Part shown: in pieces, positions 32,385-46,919 of the stretch | Layout of the letters: each line of letters opens with the position of its first letter | How positions within the stretch are numbered: the stretch's first letter is position 1 | Notes under the pieces: model-generated | The model's database searches: none | Told to the model about the DNA's origin: nothing | What the model saw: only the letters and a program-made list of their open reading frames with translations | From: Subtercola boreus | GTDB taxonomy: Bacteria > Actinomycetota > Actinomycetes > Actinomycetales > Microbacteriaceae | Reading direction: 5' to 3' | NCBI RefSeq assembly: GCF_006716115.1 | Contig: NZ_VFOO01000001.1 | Coordinates: 3,906,001-3,970,000 of the forward strand | DNA length: 64,000 bases | Program-made: the position numbers and the translations under genes

Positions 32385-33598
32385 GTTTACTTAAGCGACG
32401 ACGGGCGGTGGGCTGGCCGCAGATTTCCGGGAGATCGGCGTCGCCTGATCGAGCGGAGCCGGTGCGACGAGAGCTGTCGGGGAGCTGAGCATGAGCCACC
32501 GCATCGAATAGTGCACGCAGAGATATCCGTAGATCTCCTGGCGGACGCCGACGGGCATCTTGGAGCGGAGCGTGATCGAGCTGCTCGACCGATGCGCCCG
32601 GAACTCGTCGAATGCGCTGGCAAGGTTGCGATGCTGTGAGATGAGGGCCGACAGGTCTTTCGGGGTCAGAAGCGAGGGGTCGGCGATGGTCGTCACGAAA
32701 CGACGCCGTCCACCGTCGCGAAGGCGGGTCTCGACAACTCGCACCTCTAGCGGGGAGGTGACCGAATCGGAGATGGCGTGCTGCGGCAGGTGGGACATGA
32801 ACGAGCCGTCGGGGAGCGGGCGTGAATTCGGGAGTTCTGCGGTCGCGGGGGCTTCCCAGAGCAGCTGCGCGCCCGTGGCAGCGGCGACCCGCCATGCCTC
32901 TGACGAGAAGCTGCCTGGCCCCGCTATCACGAGGGATTCGGGGCCGATCCGCGAGAGGAAGTCCATGGTCGCCCCCTTGTCACCGTCTGCTCCTTGCACG
33001 GAAGCGCCGATCACTGCCCCGGAAGCGATCTCGGTGAGGCCGAGGACCAGGGCGGCGGGCGAACCGGGGAGGGAAAGGTCGGCCGTCTGGCGCCGGCCGA
33101 ATTCGCGGCTGTTGGCCTCTGTGTCGGGGATGTCGATGAGCACGCTGTCGATGCCCAGCACGCGCCAGGAGTGGTGGAAGCCGTCACCGCCCTCGGTCAG
33201 CGGGCGGGCGACGCGGTCGAACAGCTGCTGGATGGGTTCCCATCCCAACCTCTGCCGAGCCTTGTAGAGGGCCGCTTTCGTCGGAACGGGCCACGACTGC
33301 GTCCATCCTGACGACCACGCCTGCCCGTCGACCAGGAGGCGGATCACTTCGTCGTACGAGGAATGGGAGAACAACGCGAGCCCGAGCACGTAGTAGACCA
33401 CGATGCGAGAGGGGAGTAGCCGGCTGCGTTGTTGCACGCGCCCGAGGTCTGCGACGACCTGGTCGACGACGTCGGGCGGGAAGACCCGTGCCAGCATGGC
33501 GAATGCGAGGTGGTCTGAGAGCCGACTGTCGCTGTCGGGCTTCGTCCATCCGGCTCGGGGCATGGAAGTGATCGTACCAATCTCGGCTTTAAGTAAAC
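32385..33598 (-). mobile_element. IS4-family-like element with 10-bp inverted ends
   Basis: A single transposase-type gene is bounded by GTTTACTTAA (32385-32394) and its exact inverse TTAAGTAAAC (33589-33598). The left repeat overlaps the transposase stop codon, as in compact insertion sequences. I see no matching target-site duplication outside the repeats. The transposase looks catalytically dead, so the element is either fixed and old or kept for another function. Confidence 0.65.
32391..33563 (-). CDS. IS4-type transposase homologue lacking catalytic residues
   Basis: Encodes 390 residues from the ATG at 33563 (MPRAGWTKPDSD), a typical family start. The DNA-binding N-terminal domain is well kept (SDHLAFAMLARVFPPDVVDQ; RSRLLPSRIVVYYVLGLALF). 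The first catalytic Asp region survives (GIDSVLIDIPD). The second Asp block, normally VLADRNFF, reads VIAGPGSFS, and the Y-x2-R-x3-E block, normally RWEFESALDELK, reads HRNLASAFDEFR. Two of the three DDE residues are therefore lost, while the frame is intact to LRSKMPVGVRQEIYGYLCVH and the normal end. Loss of catalysis without stops or frameshifts suggests selection for DNA binding. The comparison sequences are from memory. Confidence 0.8.
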   Translation of the reverse strand: MPRAGWTKPDSDSRLSDHLAFAMLARVFPPDVVDQVVADLGRVQQRSRLLPSRIVVYYVLGLALFSHSSYDEVIRLLVDGQAWSSGWTQSWPVPTKAALYKARQRLGWEPIQQLFDRVARPLTEGGDGFHHSWRVLGIDSVLIDIPDTEANSREFGRRQTADLSLPGSPAALVLGLTEIASGAVIGASVQGADGDKGATMDFLSRIGPESLVIAGPGSFSSEAWRVAAATGAQLLWEAPATAELPNSRPLPDGSFMSHLPQHAISDSVTSPLEVRVVETRLRDGGRRRFVTTIADPSLLTPKDLSALISQHRNLASAFDEFRAHRSSSSITLRSKMPVGVRQEIYGYLCVHYSMRWLMLSSPTALVAPAPLDQATPISRKSAASPPPVVA

Positions 33599-33673
33599 GA
33601 TTATGTGGCCGCCGTGTATGGTGTGCGGAAGAGGCCAAATCGGCAAACTCTCACAATCCAGGGGACACACTTC
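33564..33673. promoter_or_regulatory. Divergent region between dead transposase and surface operon
   Basis: This 110-bp gap holds the right inverted repeat TTAAGTAAAC (33589-33598), immediately followed by GATTAT (33599-33604), a possible -10 for the surface genes. GGGGA lies at 33660-33664 before the ATG at 33674. A protein bound to the repeat would overlap the promoters of both directions. Confidence 0.4.
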
Positions 33674-34234
33674 ATGACGCTCAGCGACGCCGAAAACAGC
33701 ACTCACAGCACAGCCAGGCGCACGCGCCACGCCCTTGCCCGCGGCCTCGCAGTCGTCGCGGCGACGGCCGGCCTCGTGGCCGCCAGCAGCCTCGCGGCGA
33801 ACGCGGCTGAGGACACCGGCAGCACCGACGGGCACGTCGCCGTCTCGACCGCGATCTCGCTCACCGGGCTCACCAGCGACTTCACCCTGACCGGCGTTCC
33901 CGGTGCAACGGCTTCCGAGCCCGATGCCGTCGCCTTCACCGTCGAGACGAACAACCTCGCAGGGTATTCCGTCACCGTGCAGGCCGCCACCGCGACCCTC
34001 GTGGCCGACACCGCGGGCAACACCGACTCGATCCCGATCGGCGCCCTCCGCGTCAGCAACTCGGCTGATGTGCTCACACCGGTGAGCAATGCGGCCACGG
34101 TCCTCGTCCACACCCAGGGCACCCGCTCCGCTGAGGGCGGCGACGACCTGACGAACGACTACTCCGTCGCTATCCCGTTCGTGAACAGCGACACCTACTC
34201 GGTGACGCTGAACTACATCGCAGCGACCCTCTAG
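33674..34234 (+). CDS. Small secreted WxL-like protein
   Basis: Encodes 186 residues from the ATG at 33674. Signal peptide with a twin-Arg-rich n-region and a hydrophobic core ending SSLAANA (cleavage near residue 40). The mature part is one beta domain, GLTSDFTLTGVP to SDTYSVTLNYI. It is clearly homologous to the last 130 residues of the giant protein two genes downstream (GLTSSFTLTGLP to SDTYSGTLTYI). Size, position before a DUF916-like gene and the beta-domain pattern resemble WxL proteins of Firmicutes, but the W-x-L motif itself is absent (Y-I instead). No anchor is present; it probably associates with the wall or its partners. Confidence 0.8.
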   Translation: MTLSDAENSTHSTARRTRHALARGLAVVAATAGLVAASSLAANAAEDTGSTDGHVAVSTAISLTGLTSDFTLTGVPGATASEPDAVAFTVETNNLAGYSVTVQAATATLVADTAGNTDSIPIGALRVSNSADVLTPVSNAATVLVHTQGTRSAEGGDDLTNDYSVAIPFVNSDTYSVTLNYIAATL

Positions 34235-34261
34235 GTCGACATCCGCATCCTTGGTTTCTCG

Positions 34262-35266
34262 ATGACCACTCGACGTGCACGCGGCGGAGCTCTCGCCGCG
34301 TGCACGCTCGTTGCTCTGCTCCTGGCCCTCGTCGGCACAGCGTCTCCGGCCCTGGCCGACACCGCGACGCCAGCAGCCACCCCCACCCCGACCCCGTCGC
34401 CCACCCAGACGACGACGTACAACACGCTCCCCACCCCGTTCTCGCTCACAGTGAGCCCCACCCGCCTGGCCCTCGGTCCGGCCGATGCGGGCACCGACCA
34501 CGCGATCAACGTGGTCAACCGGGGAGAGGATGCCCTGCACATCGACGTGCAGAAACAGAGCTTCGTCGGGGCCGCCGACGGCAGCCTCGCGTTCCAGGCA
34601 GACGCACCGTATTCGGCGATCGACTGGGTCTCCGTCTCACCGGCGTCTTTCGATGTGCAGCCCGGTGCCGCCCAGAGTGTCTCGGTCTCCGTCGATGTGC
34701 CCGCGAACGCCGACCTGGGCGACCACCAGGTCGCCCTGGTGTTCCTTGTTCCTGCCGGCACGGATGGCTCGAACATCAAGATCAACCGTGGAGTGGGCAC
34801 GCCCGTCTACATCACGGTTCCCGGCCCTGTCGACGACACTGTCACCGTCAGTGACCTCGCTGCCCCGGGCTTCTCCGCAGGAGGTCCCGTCGACGTGACG
34901 GCGTCCGTGCAGAACGCCGGCACGGTTCATCGCGATTTCCGAGGGGACAGCGCGTTGGCTCTCGCCGGCGCATCGACGGACTTCACCGACTTCACCGTCG
35001 CCCGCGGTTCGGCGCGAACCATCAGTGCAACCTGGACGCCCCCGCTGATGTGCATCTGCAACATCAGCACGGCAATCACCAACGCAGACGGTGTCTCCAC
35101 GAGCGAGTCGGTGCAGGTCATCGTCTTTCCCGTCGTTCCCGCTGCCGAGCTTGTCGGTGGCCTCCTGCTCGTCGTCCTGCTGCTCGTCTTCGCCCGTCAC
35201 CAATATCGCAAGGGTGTTCGGCTTGCCGCAGAGCGATTGACCTCCGACAGCAGCGGAGATGTCTAG
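34262..35266 (+). CDS. DUF916-like (WxL-interacting) membrane-anchored protein
   Basis: Encodes 334 residues. A signal peptide (ALADT cleavage near 33) is followed by a Thr/Pro linker and two beta-sandwich domains (about 55-185 and 195-275). The first starts SLTVSPTRLALGPADAG with NVVNRG, the hallmark layout of DUF916. A C-terminal membrane helix lies at about 285-305 followed by Arg/Lys, so the body faces outside. In Firmicutes WxL loci such proteins bind both WxL proteins and peptidoglycan. A CIC motif near 262 could form a disulfide. It overlaps the giant gene by 8 bp, so the two are co-translated. Confidence 0.78.
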   Translation: MTTRRARGGALAACTLVALLLALVGTASPALADTATPAATPTPTPSPTQTTTYNTLPTPFSLTVSPTRLALGPADAGTDHAINVVNRGEDALHIDVQKQSFVGAADGSLAFQADAPYSAIDWVSVSPASFDVQPGAAQSVSVSVDVPANADLGDHQVALVFLVPAGTDGSNIKINRGVGTPVYITVPGPVDDTVTVSDLAAPGFSAGGPVDVTASVQNAGTVHRDFRGDSALALAGASTDFTDFTVARGSARTISATWTPPLMCICNISTAITNADGVSTSESVQVIVFPVVPAAELVGGLLLVVLLLVFARHQYRKGVRLAAERLTSDSSGDV

Positions 35267-38200
35267 ACACGCCAGGCCCCGCGGTCGGGCCCTGGCGATC
35301 ATCGCCGCCATCGCCCTCGCGGTCTCGACCGTTGTCGTCGTCACACCTTTGTCCGCGACGGCCGCCGGTACCGTGCTCTTCCAGAACAGCTTCGCCAACC
35401 GCACGGTCGACGGCACAGGCTCGGTGACCGTCCCGACGCCGACGAACGGCACCAACGCCATCTGCCTCACGGCGAGCGGCAACAGCGCGACCCTGCCCCT
35501 GCTCTCGTGCCCGGGCACGAGCGACGCACAGGGTGCGGGAAAACTCCGCATGACCAACGCGACGGGGAACCAGATCGGCGGAGTGTTCGGCGAGACGAGC
35601 TTCCCCACCTCGAACGGCCTCGACGTCACCTTCAACACGTACCAGTGGGGAGGCGGCAGCGCCGATGGTATGGCCTTCATGCTCAGCGCGATCGACCCGG
35701 CCAACCCTGCTGCCCCCACGGCCATCGGCCCCGGTGGCGGCTCACTCGGCTACAGTCCCGCCGGTTCGGTCAAGGGTCTGCCGAACGCCTATCTCGGGGT
35801 CGGCCTGGACGTGTTCGGAAACTTCAGCAGCACCGGATTCCAGGGCACTGGATGCACGAATGTGCCGAACATCACGGCATCCGTCGCCGGCGCCGTCGTG
35901 GTGCGCGGCCCCGGCAACAACCTCGCCGGGTACTGCGGGCTGACCACCACCTACACCGGATCGCCGTCGTCGAGAGTGGCGCTCCACACGTCGACGCGTG
36001 CGGCATCGGCCGTACCGGTGCAGGTGCTCATCAACCCGACCTCCAGTGCGTTCGCCTCGACAACCGGCGTCTCGGTCGATGCCGGCACCTACAAAGTTGT
36101 CGTCACGCCGGTCGGGGGAGCGACGAAGACGCTCACCGGGCCGTTGCCGACGGTGGCGGCGGGCGTCTACCCCTCGACGAGCTGGCTCAACTCGGCCGGG
36201 GTTCCGCGCCAGCTCGGCTTCGCCTTCGTCGGTTCCACGGGTTCGGTGACCGACAACCACGAGGCCTCCGACGTCAAGGTGCTCACCTTCAACCCGGTTC
36301 CCCAGCTCAGCGTCGCCGGCACCAGTTTCAGCGCCGCGAACCCCGCTGTGGGCGCGCCGGTGACCTACAGCGTCGCCACCGGCGTGCAGGTGGGCGCGAA
36401 CGAGACGAGCCCGATCTCGATGACCATGACGACACCGGCCGGGGTCGTTCCGGTGGGCGCCTTCGGTTCCGGATGGTTGTGCGGGTCTCCGAACGCACAG
36501 ACGGTGACCTGCGTCACAACGGCCTCGAGTTTCGCCAATGGCACAGCCCTGCCCACCATCACTGTCGTCGCCATCGTCACGAGCGCCAGCATGACCGCCG
36601 CCACCGTGCAGAATGCATCGACTGCCCGGGTGTCGTCGATCGACGCCAACCCCGACACCGATTCGATCATGACGGCGGGAACCCTCCCGAGCGCACCGTC
36701 GGTGACGTCGGTGAGCCCCACGATCGGAGCGATCTCGGGGGGCGGCTCGCTCACCGTCAGCGGCACCTCCCTCACGGCAGCGACAGCCATCGAGATCGGC
36801 ACGGCGGCCGAGCAGGGTGCCGCGACGCCCGTCGTGCTGCTTCCGTGCGCCAGCGGGCCGGCCGCCGGGTGTTTCACGGTCAGCGGCAACACGCTGGTCA
36901 TCTCGTCGATGCCCGCCCGGGCATCCGCTGCCGGCGTCTCTGTCACCGTCGTGACGCAGGGGCTGGCGTCTGCCGCGACCTACGTCTACGCCTCCGCGCC
37001 CGCGACACCGGTCGCACCCACCGCGACGGCCGGCACGACGAGCGCCGTGGTGAACTGGGTCGCCACGGCGACGAACGGCAGCGCTCTCACCACCTACACC
37101 GTGGTCGCCTACCTCGGAACGACCGTCGCGTCGACCGTCGTCGTCGATGCCGCCCAGCTGACCCGCACGTTCACGGGCCTCACGGTGGGCGGGTCGTACA
37201 CGTTCACCGTGGCCGCGACGAACGCCTACGGCACGTCGGCGGCGAGCCCGAAGTCGACAGCGGTTGTTCCGTACACCGTGCCCGGTGCGCCGGTGATCTC
37301 GGCCGCGACGGCCGGCGACTCGTCGGCGACCCTGACCTACAGCGCTCCGAGCAACGGCAGCAGCGTCATCACCGGGTACACCGTCACCCCCTACCTCGGC
37401 AACACCGCGCAGGCCGCCCAGGTCTTCACGGGCACGGCGACGACGCAGACGGTCGTGGGCCTGACCCCGGGCTCCGCCTACACCTTCACGGTGGCGGCCC
37501 AGAATGCTGCCGGAACCGGTGCGGCTTCGGCCCGTTCCACCGCCATTACCCCCAACCAGTCGCCGTCGCTGACCTTCGCCGCACCGCCCGCGGGCGAGGT
37601 CGGCGTGGCCTACTCACGCACACTGACCGTGACGAACGGAACGTCACCCTTCACCTGGTCGGTGAGCGCCGGCACGCTGCCGCCGGGGCTGACACTCGGA
37701 GCGACGACGGGTGTGCTCGCCGGAACGCCGACGACCGCCGGCAGCTACACCTTCACCGTGCAGATCGTCGACGCCAGCGCCCAGACCGCCAGCAGGTCCG
37801 TCACGGTCGTGATCGCAGCAGCACCGAGCATCGCGTTCGCCCCCACCCCGGGTGAGGTCGGCGTCGCCCTCAGCCAGCAGCCCGTGCTCTCGGGGGGCAC
37901 GGCCCCGATCGTCTGGCGGGTCGCCGCGGGAAGCCTGCCGGCTGGAGTCACCCTCGACGCGGGAACGGGCCTGCTCAGCGGAACCCCGACGGCGTCGGGC
38001 ACGTTCAGCCCCACCCTCACCGCCACAGACGCCTTCGGCCAGGTCGCCTCCAAACAGGTCACGCTCGTCATCGTCGCCCTGCCGACCCTCACCTTTGCCG
38101 CGCCCGCAGCGGGGCAGGTCGGTGTCGCCTACTCGACGTCGTTCGACGTGACGGGCGGAACGCTCCCGCTGGTCTGGTCGATCGCCGCCGGAAGCCTCCC

Positions 38201-41200
38201 CACCGGTCTCACGCTCAACCCGAACACTGGTGTGGTCTCTGGCACCCCGACGACCGCCGACACGAGCACCCTCACCGTGTCTGTCGTCGATGCGAACGGC
38301 CAGTCCGCGACGCGGGGAATCAGCATGGTGATGAGTGCCGGCCCGCTGGTGATCACGGTGAGCACCAACGTGGCGTCGGCCGTGCCGGGCAGCGCCGTCG
38401 CCTACACGATCACCGCAGCGAACACGTCGACCACCGCCTTCTCCTCGGTGTCGTTCAGCAATCCCCTCGCCGCCGTTCTCGACGACGCCACCTACAACTC
38501 GAACGTCTCGGCCAGCAGCGGAACGCCGAGCTTCGCCTCCAACACCATCGCGTGGACGGGCGCCCTCGCTGCCGGCGCGACGGTGACCCTCACGTATTCG
38601 GTCACCGTGCGTTCGCCCGACACGGGCAACAAGATCCTGTCGAGCGCCGTCACCTCGCCGACCCTCGGCACCAACTGCGCCACAGGCGGTACGGATGCCC
38701 GGTGCAGCTCGATCGTCACTGTACCCGGGCTCACCATCGTGAAGACCGCCGACGCGGCATCCGTCGTTCCGGGAGCCACCGTCAGGTTCACCGTCACCGC
38801 CACCAACTCCGGTCAGACGGCCTACCCGGCGGCGACGTTCAGCGACCAGCTCGCCGGTGTTCTCGACGATGCGGCCTACAACGCCGACGGCACCGCAACG
38901 TCGGGCGCCGTGTCGTACGCGAGCCAGGCGCTGACCTGGACGGGCGCCCTCGCCGTCGGGGCGAGCGCGACCCTGACCTACTCGGTGACGGTCGCCAACC
39001 CCGACACCGGCGACCGGGCACTGACCGGCTCGGTGGTCTCGGCGTCGGCGGGGAGTTCGTGCCCCGCGGTCGGTGCGGCTCCGCAGTGTTCGACGTCGGT
39101 CGCCGTGACCGTACCCGCACTCGCGCTCACGACGCATGCCAGCACCGCGACGACGACGCCGGGTGGCGCGGTCACGTACACCCTGACCATCGCCAACACG
39201 GGCCAGACGCCCTACCCCGCCACGACGACAGCCACCCTCGCGCTCGCCGGGGCACTCGACGACGCCACGGCCGGCACGCCATCGGTCGTCGGCGGCGGAA
39301 CCGCTGCCATCGACACCTCGACCGGGAACCTGTTGTGGACGGGGGGACTGGCGCTGGGGGCGACCGTGACGGTCACCGTTGTTCTCACCGTGCGCACCCC
39401 CGACAGCGGCGACAAGACGATGACGACACTCACCACGTCGCCGGCGGCAGGATCGGTCTGCCCGGTCGGCGGCTCGAGCCCAGCCTGCGTGACCACAGTG
39501 CAGGTGAAGATCCCAGCGCTCTCCATCGCCACGGCCGCCGATGTCGCCCACACGACGCCGGGTTCGGTCGTGAACTACACCCTCTCCGTCTCGAACACGG
39601 GCCAGACCCCGTACCTCGGAGCGACGGTCTCCGACGAGCTCGCCGGTCTGCTCGACGACGCCGTCTCTGCGAACGATGCGGCCGCGTCGACCGGCTCGGT
39701 CTCCGTTTCCGGCACCGTTCTGACCTGGACGGGCGATCTGGCCGTGGGCGCGACCGCGTCGATCACCTTCAGCGTCACCGTGTCGAGTCCCGATACCGGC
39801 GACCGCACGCTCACGACACTCGTGCGGTCGACCACGACCGGCGCGAACTGCGTGGCCGGAGTCACCGGGCCACCGTGCGCCACGAGCACAGTCGTGCTGA
39901 TCCCCACTCTCGCCTTCGCCAGTTCGTTCGACTCGACCACGACGACACCGGGGTCGGTCGTCAGCTACACGGTCACGGTCACGAACACCGGAGAGACCGC
40001 CTACTCGGGCGCAGTGGTGACGGTGGACCCGTCGGCCGCGCTCGACGACGCGACCTACAACCGCGACGCGGCCGCATCGGCGGGCGCCCTTCTCGTCGCG
40101 GCGGATGGCACGGTGGCGTGGACGCTCAGCCTGGCGACGGGGGCGAGCGCCACGGCGACGCTCACCTTCACGGTCGGTTCTGCGGTGGCGGGGGACCGGT
40201 CGCTGTCAGTGCGCGTCGCGTCGGAGGCCCCCGGCAGCCTCTGCCTTCCCGCCAGCGCGAACGCGTCGTGTGTCGCGACGACGTCGGTGCTGCTGCCGGC
40301 CCTCACCCTGACCACGTCGTCGAACACGGCGACGGTCAACCCGGGAGGCACCGTGGTCTACACGGTCACCGCAGAGAACACCGGGGAGACCGCGTACCCG
40401 GCCGCAGCATTCAGCGACTCCCTCGCCGGTGTGCTCACGGATTCCACGTTCGACTTCTCCTCCGCAAGCGCGACCCGGGGAACGCTCACCTACACCGACC
40501 AGGTCCTGGCATGGACGGGCGCTCTCGGCATCGGACAGACAGCGACGATCACCTACTCCGTCGTCGTTCTCGACCCCGATCCCGGCGACAAGCAACTGCG
40601 CCACACCGTCTCGTCGTCGACCGCCGGCAACAACTGCTTCACCGGAAGCACCGATGCACGCTGCAGCAGTGCCGTCAGTGTTCTCGTGCCGAGCCTCACC
40701 GTTCTCGCGACGGCGAACACCGCCAGCACGGTGCCCGGGGCATCCGTCGGCTACACCGTCACCGTCACGAACTCGGGGCCCACGGTCTTCCCGTCGGCAC
40801 GGGTGACCGACTCGCTCGCCGGTCTGCTCGACGACGCGAGCTACAACGGCGGGGTCACCGCCGACATCGGGGTGGTGATCGCCTCGCCGACCGAGCTCAT
40901 CTGGAGCGGAGCGCTCGACCCCGGCCAGGTCGCGACGATCACGTTCTCGGTGGTCGTGAACGCGGCCGACAGCGGCGACGACCTGCTGCAGAACTCCGTG
41001 AGTTCGACCTCCTCGGGCAACAACTGCGCAGCTGCACCGGATGCACGGTGCCAGGTCGTCGTGCCCGTCGCCCGTCTCGTTCTGTCGCAGAGCTACTCGC
41101 AGCCGACGGTCACACCCGGTTCCCTGCTCACCCTGACGGCCGTCTTCGTGAACACCGGGCAGGTCGCCTACAACTCCATCACGGTCGACAGCCTGAGTGC

Positions 41201-44200
41201 CGACACCGTCGACGATGCGCTGCCCACGGGCGACCAGACGGCGACGTCGGGCACCCTCTCGCTCACCGCGACCGCGATCGAGTGGACGGGCAGCATCCCG
41301 ATCGGCGGAACCGTGACGGTGACGGGAACCCTGCGGGTCGCCGACCCCGACACCGGCAACAAGACGATCACGGGCACGGTGCGTTCCACGGCTCCCGGCA
41401 ATACCTGCCCGCCCGGCGGCACGGATGCCCGTTGCACGTCGCTCGCGACGGTTCTGCTGCCCGGCCTCACCGTCTCCACCACCGCGAACGCCACCGCCGC
41501 GCTTCCCGGCTCGACGGTCGCCTACACGGTGACGCTCCAGAACACCGGCCAGACGGCGTACCCGACGGCAGCCGCGACGGTGCCGCTCGCGGGTGTGCTC
41601 GACGACGCCGACTACGCCGCCGATGCCTCGTCGACCAGTGGGTCGGTGCAGTACTCGGGTTCGACGCTCAGCTGGGCAGGACCGCTGGCCGTCGGCGCGA
41701 CGGTGACGATCCAGTACAGCGTCACCGTCCACGCCGCCGGCACCGGCTCCGGCGACAAGACGATGGTCACCCGGGTGACCTCGGCCAACGTCGGCAGCAC
41801 CTGCCCCGCGGCGAGCGGCAACGCCGCCTGCGGAACCACGGTTCTCGTTCTCACGCCCGCGTTGACGATCGTGCAGACCGCCGACGCGGCATCCACCACC
41901 CTCGGCACGACGGTGGGCTACACCGTCACGGTGACGAACAGCGGCCAGACCGCCTACAGCGGCGCCTCGTTCGCCCTCGACCTCGCCGCGGTGCTCGACG
42001 ACGCGACATTCACCGCCGGCAGCCTCACCGCCACCCGTGGCAGCGCCACCCTCAGCTCCGGCGTCATCACGTGGAGCGGCGGCCTCACCCCGACCCAGGC
42101 GGCGACCATCCACTACTCCGTCGCGGTCAACAACCCCTCGACCGGCAACCGATCGATGGCCAGCAGTGTGGTGTCGCCGACGGTCGGCAGCAACTGTCCG
42201 TCAGGGAGTACGGATGTCCGGTGCAGCAGCACCGTCCCGATCACCGATTCCGTGAGCCTGACCTTCACGTCGACTGCCACCGTGTCATCGACGGTGGTGG
42301 GTGCGACGGTGCAGTACACCGTCACGGCCGCGAACTCGAGCGCGACCTCCCAGCCGGCGACCTTCGCCGACGCGCTGGCGGGAGTGCTCGACGATGCCGT
42401 CTACAACTCCGATGCCACGGCGACGACCGGCAGCGTCGGATTCTCGGCGTCGACACTCACCTGGTCGGGCACCCTTGCTTCCGGAGCGACGGCGACCATC
42501 ACGTACTCGGTGACGGTCGGTGCCCTGGGCGCGGGTGACCACGTGCTCTCGAACCGGGTGAGTTCGACGTCGATGCCGGCCAGCAACAACTGCATCGCGG
42601 CCAGTGCCGACCCGCGTTGCGTCACCGCGGTGCCCATCGCCGCCCTGCTCATCCAGCAGCACTACACCGAGACGAGTACGACGCCGGGGTCGCTCATCCA
42701 TCTGTCGGCCACCTTCACCAACACGGGCGGCTACGCCTACACGGGCATCACGATCGTCTCGCCGAGTGCCTCGACGGTCGACGATGCGCTGCCGAGCGGA
42801 GACCAGACGGCCAGCTCCGGCACGCTCATCCTGAGTGCGACGTCCATCTCGTGGACCGGCAGCATTCCGGTCGGCGGCACGGTCACCGTGTCGGGCACCC
42901 TGACCGTGAAGAACCCCGACACGGGTGACCGCCTGATCTCGGGCACGCTCAGCTCGACGGCGCCGGGCAGCAACTGCCCGGCGGCGGGCACCGATCCGCG
43001 CTGCACCGCCACGCTGGCCGTGCTGCTGCCCGGCCTCACCATCAGTCAGAGCGCGAACGCTTCTGTGGTGATGCCCGGTTCGACGGTCACCTACAGCGTG
43101 AGCATCCACAACTCGGGGCAGACGACCTACTCGAATGCCACCGTCGCCGATTCTCTGGCCGGTGTGCTCGACGACGCGACGTACCTCGGTGACGCCGCAG
43201 CGAGTGCCGGCGCCGTGACCTTCGACAGCCCGACGCTGACCTGGGTGGGTTCGTTGGTGCCCGATGCGACAGCCACCATCACGTACTCGGTGAGGGTCAA
43301 CGACCCCGATCTCGGTGACAAGACGATGATCAACCAGCTGGCGTCGAGCGACGTGGGCAGCAGTTGCCTGCCGGCCACCGCGAATGCCGCGTGCCGCACG
43401 TCGCTCGTCGTGCTCACTCCGGCGTTGACGATCGTGACGTCGACCGACTCGAGCACCTCCGCGCCGGGAGAGACCGTCGTCTACACCGTCACAATCGCGA
43501 ACACCGGCCAGGTCGACGCAGCCGACGCCGTGCTCACCGCCAGCCTCGCGGGCGTGCTCGACGACGCCGTCTACGCGGGCGGGATCACGGCGACGGCGGG
43601 AACGGCGACAATCGTCGCCACCACGCTGGCCTGGCACGGCCCCCTCGCCATCGGTGCCGAGGCGACGATCAGCTACGCCGTCGTGGTCGGAGCGGGCACC
43701 ACGGGCGACAGCGTGCTCTTGCAGCGCGTCGTCTCGACCGACTCCGGGAGCACCTGCCAGATCGGTTCGATCGACACGCGCTGTGTCACCAGTGTCGCGA
43801 TCGCACGCCTGCACATCGTAAACGTCGCCGACGTCGACACGACGTATCCGACCGGTGTTGTCGCCTACACGGGCACGTTCACCAACACCGGCCAGGTGCC
43901 GTACATCGGCATCTCGGTCTCCACCAGTTTTCTCGACTCCGCCGACGATGCGACCTACAACGGTGATGCGGGCGTCGACTCCGGCAGCCTGCTGCTCACT
44001 CCCGAGACCGGGCAGATCGTCTGGACGGGAGACATCCCTGTCGGCGGCACGGTCGTTCTGACGGGGTCGGTGACCGTGAACAACCCCGACCTCGGCGACC
44101 TGGTGATCGGCTCGAGAATGACGTCGACCGCGGCGGGCAGCAGTTGCCTCACGAGCGAGCTGCCCGGATGCTCGAACCGCGTCGCCGTCCTGTTGCCGAT

Positions 44201-46919
44201 TCTCAGCATCTCGACGACGGCCGACAGCGGCACCACGTCGCCCGGCGCCACCGTCACCTACACGACCACCGCGACCAACACCGGCCCGACGGTCTACACC
44301 TCCGCACGCGTCACCGACAATCTGGTCGGCGCGCTCTCCGACGGTGTCTACAACGCCGATGCGTCGTCGACCAGTGGCAGCGTCAGTTTCAGCGGCACCC
44401 GACTGTCGTGGGTGGGTGATCTCGCTCTCGGCCAGAGCGTGAGCATCACCTACAGCATCACCGTCGACGATCCCGACCTCGGTGACCGCATCCTCGCGAA
44501 CGCCGTCACCTCGTCGGAGCTCGGAAGCACCTGCGCCCCAGGAACCACGAACCCGCTGTGCGCGACCGAGGTGATCGTGCTCGTGCCGGAGCTCCTGCTC
44601 ACCGTCACCGCCGACACCGAGACGACCGTGCCGGGCGGCGTCGTCGGCTACACCGTCGCGATCGCGAATGCCGGGCAGACCGACTACACGGCCGCCGGGG
44701 TCGTCGTCGACCTGTCGGGGGCGCTCGACGACGCCACCGGTCCGGATGCGCTGACCGCCACTCGCGGCGATGTGCAGTCGTCTGCCACGGGGATCCAGTG
44801 GAACGGCGACCTCGCGGCGGGGCAGTCCGCGATCATCCACTATTCGCTCACGGTGGCCGACCCCGACGTCGGCGACCGGGTGCTGGCGACCAGTGCCAGC
44901 ACGACGGCGGCCGGGGGCGACTGTTCGGCATCCGGAGCCTGTGCCAACACGGTGACCGTGCTGATTCCCGGGCTCGCGATCGCCGCGTCGACCTCCACCG
45001 CCAGCACGACCCCCGGCGGCACGGTCGTCGTCACGATCGCCGTGACGAACACCGGCCAGACCGCGTACACCAGCGCAGACTTCACGTCGTCGCTCGCGGA
45101 GGTCGTCGACGACGCCCAGCTGAGCGGCCCGGTGTCCGCCACTTCGGGAACAGCGAGTGTCTCCGACCAGACGCTGGACTGGGCGGGCGCTCTCGCCCTC
45201 GGCCAGATCGCGACGATCAGCTACACCGTGGTCGTCGACGACCCCGACACGGGAGACCGGACGCTGGCGAGCTCGGTGGTCTCGGGGTCCCCCGGCAGCA
45301 CCTGCCCTGTCGGCGGCGACGACCCGGCGTGCGCCATCTCGGTCACGGTGCTGATTCCCCAGCTGACCGTCGTGAAGACAGCAGACACGCCCAGCACCCA
45401 GCCGGGCGGGGTCATTGGATACACCATTCTCGTCTCGAACAGCGGCCAGACCGCCTACACCGCCGCCACCGTCTCCGACTCTCTCGCCGGAGTGCTGACC
45501 GACGCCGACTACAACCTCGACGTCGTGGTCGCCGGCGGTGGAACCCTCAACTACACCGCCCCCACCCTGGCCTGGGCCGGCGATCTCGCCGTAGGCGCTT
45601 CCGCGCGGATCACCTACTCGGTCACCGTGAAGGATCCCGACCCCGGGGACAAGCTCGTCACGAACACCGTCGTCTCGGCGTCGCCGGGCAGCACCTGCCG
45701 TCCCGGTGCGACGTCGGCCGCCTGTTCCACCGTCGTGCGGGTTCTGGTGCCGGACCTAGAACTGCGCACCACGGCCGACAGCAGCACCGTCGTCGCCGGC
45801 AGCTCAGTGCACTACACGATCACCGTCACCAACACCGGGCAGACCGCCTACGAGCCGGCGACGGTCGTGGCCCCGCTCGGCGGGATGCTCGACGATGCGA
45901 CCTATAACGCCGACGCGACAGCCACCGGCGGCGACGTCTCCCTCTCCAGCGACGGTGCCGCTCTCGTCTGGGTCGGCGCCGTCGACCTGGCCGGCACCAT
46001 CACAATCACCTTCTCGATGACCGCCGATCTTCCCGCGACGGGCGACCACGTTCTGGCCGGCACTCTCACGTCTCCGAGTGCAGGTGCGTACTGCGCGGCT
46101 CCGCCGGGCCCCGGATGCTCGACCACCGTCGCGGTGCTGATCCCGTCACTCTCCATCAGCAAGACCGCGGACCAGGCGACGGCGGTCGCCGGCTCATCCG
46201 TGGTCTTCACCCTCACCGCCACCAACACGGGCGAAGCCGACTACGCCGACGCCGACCTGCACGATTCGCTCGCCGGCGTGCTCGACGCCGCCGCCTACAA
46301 CAACGACGCTTCCGCCACCACAGGCTCGGTCGGCTTCAGCTCGGGATCGGTCCAGTGGCACGGGGCATTGGCCCGCGGAGCCGTCGTCGTGGTGACCTAC
46401 TCGGTCACCGCCCTCATCGAGGCCCCCGAAGACGCTGTACTCGTCAACGCCGTCACGTCGGACACCGTCGGCAGCACCTGCGTCGACGGGAGCGTCGATC
46501 CGGCGTGCTCTGTCACCGTTCCCGTCGCCGCCCGCAGCATCAGCATCTCGGGCCTGACCTCGTCGTTCACGCTGACCGGTCTCCCGAACAGCACGGTCAC
46601 GAAAGACGGTGCTGTCACGATGACCGTCGACACGAACAGCAACGGCGGCTACCTCGTCGCGGTGCAGTCGGAATCACCCGTGCTCACCCCCCTGGCGGTC
46701 TCGAATGCTGAGACGATTCCGCTCGCGAACCTCGGCGTCAGGGCGAGCAGCTCGTCCGTCTTCGTACCTCTTGCGATGACCCCCTTCGTGGTCGCCGACA
46801 TCACACACGCCTCGGCGCCGGGCGGAGACGGCGTCAGCAACGACTACCGCGTCGACATCCCGTTCGTCCCCAGCGACACCTATTCGGGCACGCTGACCTA
46901 CATCGTCAGCGCTCAATGA
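35259..46919 (+). CDS. Giant modular surface protein (lectin-like, 21 DUF11 repeats, WxL-like C-end)
   Basis: Encodes 3,886 residues. Domains in order: signal peptide (1-36, cleavage near SATA); L-type lectin-like domain (37-340, with GGGSLGYS and AYLGVGLDVFGNF); one beta domain (345-470); IPT/TIG (475-575); two FN3 domains (580-765); three putative-Ig/cadherin-like units with GEVGVAYS openings and PPGLTL...GVLAGTPT (765-1027); 21 DUF11 repeats of about 130 residues (1028-3757); and a C-terminal domain homologous to the small secreted protein (3758-3886). There is no LPxTG, membrane helix or wall-binding repeat, so attachment must be through partners. Each DUF11 unit ends in a cysteine pair. 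It could be a very long fibre presenting a glycan-binding tip. Confidence 0.9.
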   Translation: MSRHARPRGRALAIIAAIALAVSTVVVVTPLSATAAGTVLFQNSFANRTVDGTGSVTVPTPTNGTNAICLTASGNSATLPLLSCPGTSDAQGAGKLRMTNATGNQIGGVFGETSFPTSNGLDVTFNTYQWGGGSADGMAFMLSAIDPANPAAPTAIGPGGGSLGYSPAGSVKGLPNAYLGVGLDVFGNFSSTGFQGTGCTNVPNITASVAGAVVVRGPGNNLAGYCGLTTTYTGSPSSRVALHTSTRAASAVPVQVLINPTSSAFASTTGVSVDAGTYKVVVTPVGGATKTLTGPLPTVAAGVYPSTSWLNSAGVPRQLGFAFVGSTGSVTDNHEASDVKVLTFNPVPQLSVAGTSFSAANPAVGAPVTYSVATGVQVGANETSPISMTMTTPAGVVPVGAFGSGWLCGSPNAQTVTCVTTASSFANGTALPTITVVAIVTSASMTAATVQNASTARVSSIDANPDTDSIMTAGTLPSAPSVTSVSPTIGAISGGGSLTVSGTSLTAATAIEIGTAAEQGAATPVVLLPCASGPAAGCFTVSGNTLVISSMPARASAAGVSVTVVTQGLASAATYVYASAPATPVAPTATAGTTSAVVNWVATATNGSALTTYTVVAYLGTTVASTVVVDAAQLTRTFTGLTVGGSYTFTVAATNAYGTSAASPKSTAVVPYTVPGAPVISAATAGDSSATLTYSAPSNGSSVITGYTVTPYLGNTAQAAQVFTGTATTQTVVGLTPGSAYTFTVAAQNAAGTGAASARSTAITPNQSPSLTFAAPPAGEVGVAYSRTLTVTNGTSPFTWSVSAGTLPPGLTLGATTGVLAGTPTTAGSYTFTVQIVDASAQTASRSVTVVIAAAPSIAFAPTPGEVGVALSQQPVLSGGTAPIVWRVAAGSLPAGVTLDAGTGLLSGTPTASGTFSPTLTATDAFGQVASKQVTLVIVALPTLTFAAPAAGQVGVAYSTSFDVTGGTLPLVWSIAAGSLPTGLTLNPNTGVVSGTPTTADTSTLTVSVVDANGQSATRGISMVMSAGPLVITVSTNVASAVPGSAVAYTITAANTSTTAFSSVSFSNPLAAVLDDATYNSNVSASSGTPSFASNTIAWTGALAAGATVTLTYSVTVRSPDTGNKILSSAVTSPTLGTNCATGGTDARCSSIVTVPGLTIVKTADAASVVPGATVRFTVTATNSGQTAYPAATFSDQLAGVLDDAAYNADGTATSGAVSYASQALTWTGALAVGASATLTYSVTVANPDTGDRALTGSVVSASAGSSCPAVGAAPQCSTSVAVTVPALALTTHASTATTTPGGAVTYTLTIANTGQTPYPATTTATLALAGALDDATAGTPSVVGGGTAAIDTSTGNLLWTGGLALGATVTVTVVLTVRTPDSGDKTMTTLTTSPAAGSVCPVGGSSPACVTTVQVKIPALSIATAADVAHTTPGSVVNYTLSVSNTGQTPYLGATVSDELAGLLDDAVSANDAAASTGSVSVSGTVLTWTGDLAVGATASITFSVTVSSPDTGDRTLTTLVRSTTTGANCVAGVTGPPCATSTVVLIPTLAFASSFDSTTTTPGSVVSYTVTVTNTGETAYSGAVVTVDPSAALDDATYNRDAAASAGALLVAADGTVAWTLSLATGASATATLTFTVGSAVAGDRSLSVRVASEAPGSLCLPASANASCVATTSVLLPALTLTTSSNTATVNPGGTVVYTVTAENTGETAYPAAAFSDSLAGVLTDSTFDFSSASATRGTLTYTDQVLAWTGALGIGQTATITYSVVVLDPDPGDKQLRHTVSSSTAGNNCFTGSTDARCSSAVSVLVPSLTVLATANTASTVPGASVGYTVTVTNSGPTVFPSARVTDSLAGLLDDASYNGGVTADIGVVIASPTELIWSGALDPGQVATITFSVVVNAADSGDDLLQNSVSSTSSGNNCAAAPDARCQVVVPVARLVLSQSYSQPTVTPGSLLTLTAVFVNTGQVAYNSITVDSLSADTVDDALPTGDQTATSGTLSLTATAIEWTGSIPIGGTVTVTGTLRVADPDTGNKTITGTVRSTAPGNTCPPGGTDARCTSLATVLLPGLTVSTTANATAALPGSTVAYTVTLQNTGQTAYPTAAATVPLAGVLDDADYAADASSTSGSVQYSGSTLSWAGPLAVGATVTIQYSVTVHAAGTGSGDKTMVTRVTSANVGSTCPAASGNAACGTTVLVLTPALTIVQTADAASTTLGTTVGYTVTVTNSGQTAYSGASFALDLAAVLDDATFTAGSLTATRGSATLSSGVITWSGGLTPTQAATIHYSVAVNNPSTGNRSMASSVVSPTVGSNCPSGSTDVRCSSTVPITDSVSLTFTSTATVSSTVVGATVQYTVTAANSSATSQPATFADALAGVLDDAVYNSDATATTGSVGFSASTLTWSGTLASGATATITYSVTVGALGAGDHVLSNRVSSTSMPASNNCIAASADPRCVTAVPIAALLIQQHYTETSTTPGSLIHLSATFTNTGGYAYTGITIVSPSASTVDDALPSGDQTASSGTLILSATSISWTGSIPVGGTVTVSGTLTVKNPDTGDRLISGTLSSTAPGSNCPAAGTDPRCTATLAVLLPGLTISQSANASVVMPGSTVTYSVSIHNSGQTTYSNATVADSLAGVLDDATYLGDAAASAGAVTFDSPTLTWVGSLVPDATATITYSVRVNDPDLGDKTMINQLASSDVGSSCLPATANAACRTSLVVLTPALTIVTSTDSSTSAPGETVVYTVTIANTGQVDAADAVLTASLAGVLDDAVYAGGITATAGTATIVATTLAWHGPLAIGAEATISYAVVVGAGTTGDSVLLQRVVSTDSGSTCQIGSIDTRCVTSVAIARLHIVNVADVDTTYPTGVVAYTGTFTNTGQVPYIGISVSTSFLDSADDATYNGDAGVDSGSLLLTPETGQIVWTGDIPVGGTVVLTGSVTVNNPDLGDLVIGSRMTSTAAGSSCLTSELPGCSNRVAVLLPILSISTTADSGTTSPGATVTYTTTATNTGPTVYTSARVTDNLVGALSDGVYNADASSTSGSVSFSGTRLSWVGDLALGQSVSITYSITVDDPDLGDRILANAVTSSELGSTCAPGTTNPLCATEVIVLVPELLLTVTADTETTVPGGVVGYTVAIANAGQTDYTAAGVVVDLSGALDDATGPDALTATRGDVQSSATGIQWNGDLAAGQSAIIHYSLTVADPDVGDRVLATSASTTAAGGDCSASGACANTVTVLIPGLAIAASTSTASTTPGGTVVVTIAVTNTGQTAYTSADFTSSLAEVVDDAQLSGPVSATSGTASVSDQTLDWAGALALGQIATISYTVVVDDPDTGDRTLASSVVSGSPGSTCPVGGDDPACAISVTVLIPQLTVVKTADTPSTQPGGVIGYTILVSNSGQTAYTAATVSDSLAGVLTDADYNLDVVVAGGGTLNYTAPTLAWAGDLAVGASARITYSVTVKDPDPGDKLVTNTVVSASPGSTCRPGATSAACSTVVRVLVPDLELRTTADSSTVVAGSSVHYTITVTNTGQTAYEPATVVAPLGGMLDDATYNADATATGGDVSLSSDGAALVWVGAVDLAGTITITFSMTADLPATGDHVLAGTLTSPSAGAYCAAPPGPGCSTTVAVLIPSLSISKTADQATAVAGSSVVFTLTATNTGEADYADADLHDSLAGVLDAAAYNNDASATTGSVGFSSGSVQWHGALARGAVVVVTYSVTALIEAPEDAVLVNAVTSDTVGSTCVDGSVDPACSVTVPVAARSISISGLTSSFTLTGLPNSTVTKDGAVTMTVDTNSNGGYLVAVQSESPVLTPLAVSNAETIPLANLGVRASSSSVFVPLAMTPFVVADITHASAPGGDGVSNDYRVDIPFVPSDTYSGTLTYIVSAQ
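38340..46529 (+). repeat. Coding array of 21 DUF11 repeats
   Basis: The units start with a PxLxI/V motif, carry a VPGxxVxYTVTxxNTGQTxY segment and LAGVLDDA, then SxxLxWTGxLxxGxxxxITYSV, and end with GSxC-x(5-9)-C. Period is about 130 codons (390 bp). Units 8, 12 and 15 form a subtype beginning with a different strand pattern (e.g. SADTVDDALPTGDQT) and units 8-10 resemble 12-14 in order, so blocks of several units were duplicated. Confidence 0.85.

Follow-up and report, generated by a model that had tools for sequence, protein, structure and literature searches.

A three-gene cluster of Subtercola boreus that encodes a giant repeat protein resembles Firmicutes WxL loci in its architecture

The window, i.e. 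the whole stretch of 64,000 nucleotides from the soil actinobacterium Subtercola boreus that was analysed, contains at 33674-46919 three co-directional genes, which code for a small protein, a protein of 334 aa and a giant of 3,886 aa. As the initial annotation had claimed, the ORF calls place them at 33674, 34262 and 35259, all on the plus strand. A divergent gene derived from an IS4 transposase lies beside them. The features are the following:

32385..32394, no strand: inverted repeat GTTTACTTAA, left copy, flanking the IS4-derived gene
32391..33638, minus strand: divergent IS4-transposase-derived gene, which lacks two residues of the catalytic set
33589..33598, no strand: inverted repeat GTTTACTTAA, right copy, 75 bp upstream of the ATG of the small gene
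33674..34234, plus strand: gene of the small secreted protein, 186 aa from ATG 33674, stop at 34234
34262..35266, plus strand: gene of the WxLIP (DUF916)-like protein, 334 aa, with an invariant C-x-C and a C-terminal membrane helix
35132..35188, plus strand: predicted C-terminal membrane helix of the 334-aa protein, residues 291-309 (hydropathy only)
35259..46919, plus strand: gene of the giant fibrillar adhesin-like protein, 3,886 aa
35517..36260, plus strand: L-type-lectin-like domain at the N-terminus of the giant (sub-threshold PF18483)
38334..46523, plus strand: repeat stalk of the DUF11/DUF7927 type, with its edges drawn by eye
46524..46919, plus strand: WxL-like domain at the C-terminus of the giant, a homologue of the small protein

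The ORF of the small protein opens at GTG 33605, and ATG 33674 is internal to it. Since 27 bp separate the small gene from the 334-aa gene and the latter overlaps the giant gene by 8 bp, the three genes likely form an operon. Consensus scans revealed neither a promoter-like site nor a plus-strand terminator-like site at the cluster ends, and no plasmid record was found to encode the 334-aa protein (P0002) at E<=1e-5. Each of the three proteins starts with a signal-like hydrophobic stretch, and the mature part of the small protein consists of a single domain, in line with the small secreted protein that had been proposed. It had also been claimed that the locus lacks an LPxTG protein and a sortase. 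We found the string LP.T[GA] only twice in window ORFs of >=80 aa, both times in the giant (residues 2704 and 3591) and in neither case placed as a C-terminal sorting signal, and no sortase among ten scanned neighbours in the window, which agrees with this claim.

A Pfam scan of the giant detected 21 DUF7927 and 18 DUF11 stretches, which overlap one another, as well as fn3 and He_PIG domains. Its N-terminus matches PF18483 with 29.6 bits (E 7.7e-7), which is below the cut-off of 78.3. The description as a giant lectin-DUF11 protein is thereby borne out, with the lectin part at a sub-threshold score. No known anchor domain was found in the giant by the Pfam scan. The protein is comparable to the fibrillar adhesins presented in the accessible text of PMC9210967, as it combines a long repeat stalk with an adhesive-type tip; unlike for those, a candidate anchor domain and partner genes are identified here. 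Downstream of the giant, two related loci carry an extra DUF11 protein with a C-terminal membrane helix, as judged by eye (L045 2290-2949, L050 5382-6074). In the window and in L022, the genes listed next on the 3' side of the giant encode other proteins, by eye or Pfam.

The decisive point for this gene set, which was absent from the first reading, is the homology between the small protein and the end of the giant. In a BLAST comparison, the small protein and the last 131 residues of the giant share 47% identity over 125 aa (91.3 bits, E 9e-25), and their local alignment score of 250 stands against a mean of 41 and a maximum of 69 in 1000 shuffles. The mature small protein is one WxL-like domain with the motifs G-Y-S-V and T-Y-S-V-T-L-N-Y-I. 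In the following, type-1 refers to the WxL-like domain of the small protein, of the giant's end and of their closest relatives, and type-2/3 to those beside other WxLIPs. WxL domains carry two W-x-L motifs, the first preceded by D-x-R-G (PMC1534035, accessible text), and the distal motif is given as YXXX(L/I/V)TWXLXXXP in the portion of PMC5817068 at hand. In the shared domain, Y-x-V takes the place of W-x-L at motif 1, and a Y that of the second W, just as the replacement of W-x-L had been noted before. W-x-L in the shared domain is absent from all three proteins, whose sole W.L string is located at residue 1621 of the giant. The type-1 domain shares with WxL the motif register only and has no D-x-R-G before motif 1. 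At E<=1 the small protein matched no Pfam family, and direct Pfam and NCBIfam scans gave no DUF916, DUF3324 or WxL match. Searches against solved structures yielded no significant match (best E 0.041), and the AlphaFold models were poor (pLDDT 43.6 and 32.1).

The 334-aa protein had been regarded as a DUF916-like protein with a C-terminal anchor, to be checked with DUF916 and WxL profiles. A C-terminal hydrophobic segment was found in 16/16 members of its family, by hydropathy only. The protein itself did not match PF06030 (DUF916) at E<=1, and 3/16 family members did so below the cut-off (best E 0.1). DUF3324 (HBD) was not among the matches listed for the protein, the partner set described below and the family (for the latter, 25 of 26 matches), and the string NQIDK of the motif NQIDKxxxYFDLK is absent from the 334-aa protein. 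All 16 aligned type-1 WxLIP-like proteins have an invariant H-R pair and a C-x-C, which is C-x-x-C in one of them.

A different picture emerged from the comparison of profiles with each other. We aligned five members of the family and compared this alignment with that of 13 other actinobacterial proteins gathered by similarity to P0002. Four candidates were left out of this WxLIP set (L015, L017, L020 and L021), because they matched only the Pro/Thr-rich N-terminal part of P0002 and appeared by eye to be other proteins. The hhalign probability was 99.6% (E 8e-25, 265 columns), and the alignment covers both domains of those actinobacterial proteins. The same probability was obtained with the 16-member family alignment, where the maximum of 50 column shuffles was 0.9% and the reversed profile scored 1.3%. 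In the 13-row partner set, PF06030 (WxLIP_PGBD) was matched at E<=0.0011 by 6/6 scanned proteins, three of which were over the cut-off. Moreover, the 5-row family HMM matched 10/10 full-length WxLIPs from ten loci (E 1.5e-23 to 1.2e-10) and missed four shorter, second WxLIP-like ORFs in those loci. In 8/12 genomes of the genus, PF06030 exceeded the cut-off, with none at this locus among the matches listed. Judged by these profiles, the 334-aa protein is homologous to DUF916-matching proteins, although it has no direct PF06030 match. Hence, the DUF916 kinship and the C-terminal helix (residues 291-309) of the initial annotation stand, whereas a direct match to the Pfam profiles and a DUF3324 domain were not detected.

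We addressed further whether the shared domain itself is WxL-type. PF13731 was over the cut-off in 0/60 relatives, with a positive Lactococcus control, and direct hhalign of the type-1 domain against nine type-2/3 WxL-like domains gave 0.3% with a score of 13.9, where column shuffles reach 22.8. This failed comparison, as well as the missing Pfam WxL match of the type-1 domain, is what one would expect if the domain were an unrelated beta-sandwich which converged on display, only the membrane protein being related to DUF916. The other WxLIPs of the phylum adjoin proteins that end in a beta-rich domain. Such domains of type-2/3 WxLIP neighbours showed a sub-threshold PF13731 match in 6/7 scanned cases (E 8e-4 to 0.13); among eight small or single-domain partners from linking loci there was none at E<=1, and of two larger partner proteins scanned, one had a weak match (L160, E 0.014).

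An iterated HMM search speaks for kinship. It was seeded with the type-1 domain and run over the unique ORFs, 80-1500 aa in length, of every locus fetched by then. An untrimmed run was rejected, since its model had taken up DUF11 repeats from the giants, and 21 giant pieces were for this reason cut to their last 140 residues. The search converged on 112/3,697 ORFs with no reversed decoy at E<=1e-3 (best decoy 0.3 over all rounds), and 111 of the 112 matches end <=6 residues from the C-terminus. It matched 0/79 WxLIP-like ORFs, and nine of nine type-2/3 domains beside DUF916-type proteins joined it with a final E<=1.7e-13. In addition, a WxL-like domain lies <=1.5 kb from 52/55 WxLIP-like ORFs in 45 loci, a count in which L032 repeats the window and several ORFs are shorter ones that accompany another WxLIP-like ORF in their locus. 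Because the presence of a WxLIP or of this domain was the reason for picking the loci, which also served to train the model, these adjacency counts are not independent; together with the iterated search they support the kinship of the domains rather than test it independently.

The motifs were counted in rows, with some genes fetched twice. Motif 1 is Y in 38/39 type-1 rows (one gap), and motif 2 is Y in 38 and F in one. In the type-2/3 rows, motif 1 is W in 30/32 and motif 2 is L/I/V in 32/32; D-x-R and W-x-[LIV] are kept in 9/9 aligned domains of these types. Of the other 41 rows, most of which come from different classes of the phylum, 36 have W at motif 1 and 33 have Y at motif 2. This W/Y position common to the groups, the decoy-free convergence in C-terminal register and the adjacency to WxLIP-like ORFs speak against a convergent, unrelated sandwich, which we consider unlikely. 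The relation of the shared domain to WxL-type domains appears to be an indirect one, and by motif or Pfam it is not a WxL domain.

The type-1 domain is rare. In genome samples that each contain the window's own genome, it was found in 3/12 genus, 4/398 family and 2/396 phylum genomes (profile A1, E<=1e-3) and in 17/394 class genomes, two of them weak (profile A5, E<=0.01). One other family has it in 13/35 genomes. This rare and scattered occurrence suggests that transfer or loss has shaped the distribution of the cluster. All three genes were also found in a second genus within the Microbacteriaceae and, within the class, in two further families. We examined 19 of 21 positive genomes, leaving out G997 and G1098 (E 0.004 and 0.0098), and found the pair of small and WxLIP-like genes in 17 of them. 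The two genes are near neighbours in all but G1034, in which the giant separates them. A large protein with the same C-terminal domain is encoded in 15 of the 17 pair genomes, 13 times on the same stretch and twice on another contig, so that the proposed co-occurrence of the three genes was confirmed. The G1087 locus was followed over 1.5 kb of flank only, and G951 and G1042 yielded fragments. In G1004 and G869 the large gene runs on the opposite strand, split over two frames in the latter. In G536, which belongs to another class, the pair is present and such a large gene is absent on a stretch of 19.9 kb; the small protein and the membrane protein therefore seem to be the core of the system.

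The 5-row WxLIP family profile is more widespread and matches 70/396 phylum genomes. The window's genome has three WxLIP loci, the window included. At one of them (L064 8380-12918, C1:3816000-3834000), a DUF916-type protein, a membrane protein and a protein that by eye is metallophosphatase-like and ends in a WxL-like domain lie side by side, resembling the Ang-2/metallophosphatase/DUF916 neighbourhood in the accessible text of PMC12537917. The other (L003 4814-10970, C1:4004000-4020000) encodes a DUF916-type protein with a WxL-like partner and a sortase-domain protein, and by eye also PstS- and PstB-like genes. One WxLIP is accompanied by two small WxL-like proteins at L159 8542-9679, from a genome of 7.0 Mb in the same class.

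Three Subtercola genomes have the IS4-derived gene (32391-33638) next to the operon and share a homologous block that extends from the one into the other. Both of its boundaries are seen in the S. boreus comparison genome and the left one only in the RYN_59 MAG, whose contig stops on the right side inside the giant. A copy of GTTTACTTAA borders the gene on either side in 3/3 of these genomes; a short conserved stretch lies immediately left of the left copy, and conserved patches run from the right copy to the start of the small gene. The IS4 N-terminal domain is present, and DDE_Tnp_1 is absent in 3/3 at E<=10 and present in 2/2 more distant homologues. Compared with the latter, the first D is kept, the second D is replaced by G, G and E, and the E by A in 3/3, positions which we take to be the catalytic residues. 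The dN/dS values are 0.14-0.25 for the IS4-derived gene and 0.13-0.24 for the operon genes, with dS >1 in several pairs. By these values, the gene is apparently under purifying selection despite the missing residues of the catalytic set. Its DNA has one matching place in its genome, and homologues of the protein occur in 4/199 family genomes, including the window's genome and the S. boreus comparison genome. No IS4-derived gene was found beside the G316, G536 or other scanned clusters. A composite transposon of the four-gene block was considered and dropped, because the exact GTTTACTTAA is nowhere to be found at the far end of the cluster. That the protein acts as a regulator is a guess on our part.

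Taken together, we estimate at about 70% the probability that the three genes encode a divergent, sortase-independent display complex of the WxL/WxLIP type. The basis of this reading is the secreted-type architecture, the domain homology, the link to DUF916, the conserved partnership and the tyrosine at both motif positions. The 334-aa protein would be held in the membrane via its C-terminal helix and, outside the cell, would keep the WxL-like domains of its two partners, the small protein and the giant, at the wall, by analogy with the WxLIP of PMC10599100 as far as its text is accessible. The giant would project as a long repeat stalk with the lectin-like tip outward, which may bind glycans on a surface or on a partner cell. 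Physical contact of the parts, wall attachment and glycan binding are what we infer. In vitro binding of two WxL proteins to their transmembrane partner has been reported for E. faecium (Galloway-Pena et al., quoted from a citing passage).

Alternatively, the small protein could be a subunit that polymerises, with the membrane protein as an assembly factor that donates a strand, and the resulting fibre would carry the giant. An AlphaFold2 prediction in the accessible part of PMC10599100, where a DUF916 strand completes the WxL sandwich, and the presence of two small proteins in several related loci (L150, L151, L153, L159) would be compatible with such a fibre; the window locus, however, encodes a single small protein, and no pilin-type or assembly family was detected among the ten scanned neighbours, which makes it quite improbable. 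A further possibility is that the giant, for which neither a sorting signal nor a known anchor domain was found, is just secreted, or is retained through its repeats, and that the other two proteins have a different task at the surface. Given the shared domain at the giant's end and an adjacency that is conserved over families, this is very improbable.

The display complex we favour follows the same adjacent-gene plan as the Firmicutes WxL/csc loci (cscA-D; small WxL, large WxL and WxLIP = DUF916-DUF3324-TMH), which are familiar from lactic acid bacteria, with a one-domain small protein, a large protein ending alike and a partner with a membrane helix. An LPxTG gene is described as useful and not essential in WxL clusters in the accessible sections of PMC9772566. 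In contrast to the Firmicutes loci, the window cluster has tyrosine at both tryptophan positions and lacks D-x-R-G, NQIDK and any Pfam match to DUF916, DUF3324 or WxL. The unbroken large proteins of type-1 clusters have, by ORF length, 2,958-3,977 aa, compared to ~500-1000 in the same part of PMC9772566. The gene set resembles WxL/csc by its architecture, as judged from the sequences, and is not a member by motif and Pfam; the gene logic of Firmicutes WxL loci that had been proposed thus survives as a shared-domain plan. Other actinobacterial DUF916 (WxLIP_PGBD) loci are similar to the window in that the WxLIP adjoins a protein ending in a WxL-like domain, and differ in having mostly W at motif 1 and L/I/V at motif 2, and in their cargo and neighbours (by eye metallophosphatase and Pst-type genes; a sortase-domain protein).

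More than 91% of WxL sequences have been assigned to Firmicutes (PMC9772566, accessible text). DUF916 genes of Actinomycetota have already been published beside Ang-2 genes, which occur in Actinomycetota only, according to the available portion of PMC12537917. PMC4449606 was the one paper that joins WxL, DUF916 and Actinobacteria, and the cluster in its accessible text is that of lactobacilli. We did not find a published actinobacterial cluster with a WxL-type partner domain in a literature search that relied mainly on listings and included few subscription papers. The initial reading of the locus as an undescribed variant of this wall-attachment system is supported by our data, display itself being argued by analogy.

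On a larger scale, and with considerable doubt, one may picture in Actinomycetota a phylum-wide, mostly unannotated WxL/WxLIP branch, in which each of the two signature tryptophans was replaced independently of the other (W...Y, W...L/I/V, Y...Y). Giant stalks with a lectin tip would then be the cargo of the Y...Y branch, and a catalysis-dead IS4 transposase would control the adhesin operon of Subtercola via retained inverted repeats. If the display reading is true, the defining tryptophan motif of WxL would not be essential, and the logic of WxL display would reach through Actinomycetota. Moreover, giant repeat adhesins without LPxTG signals would have a proposed anchor, and natural W-to-Y variants would be available for asking what the tryptophans do.
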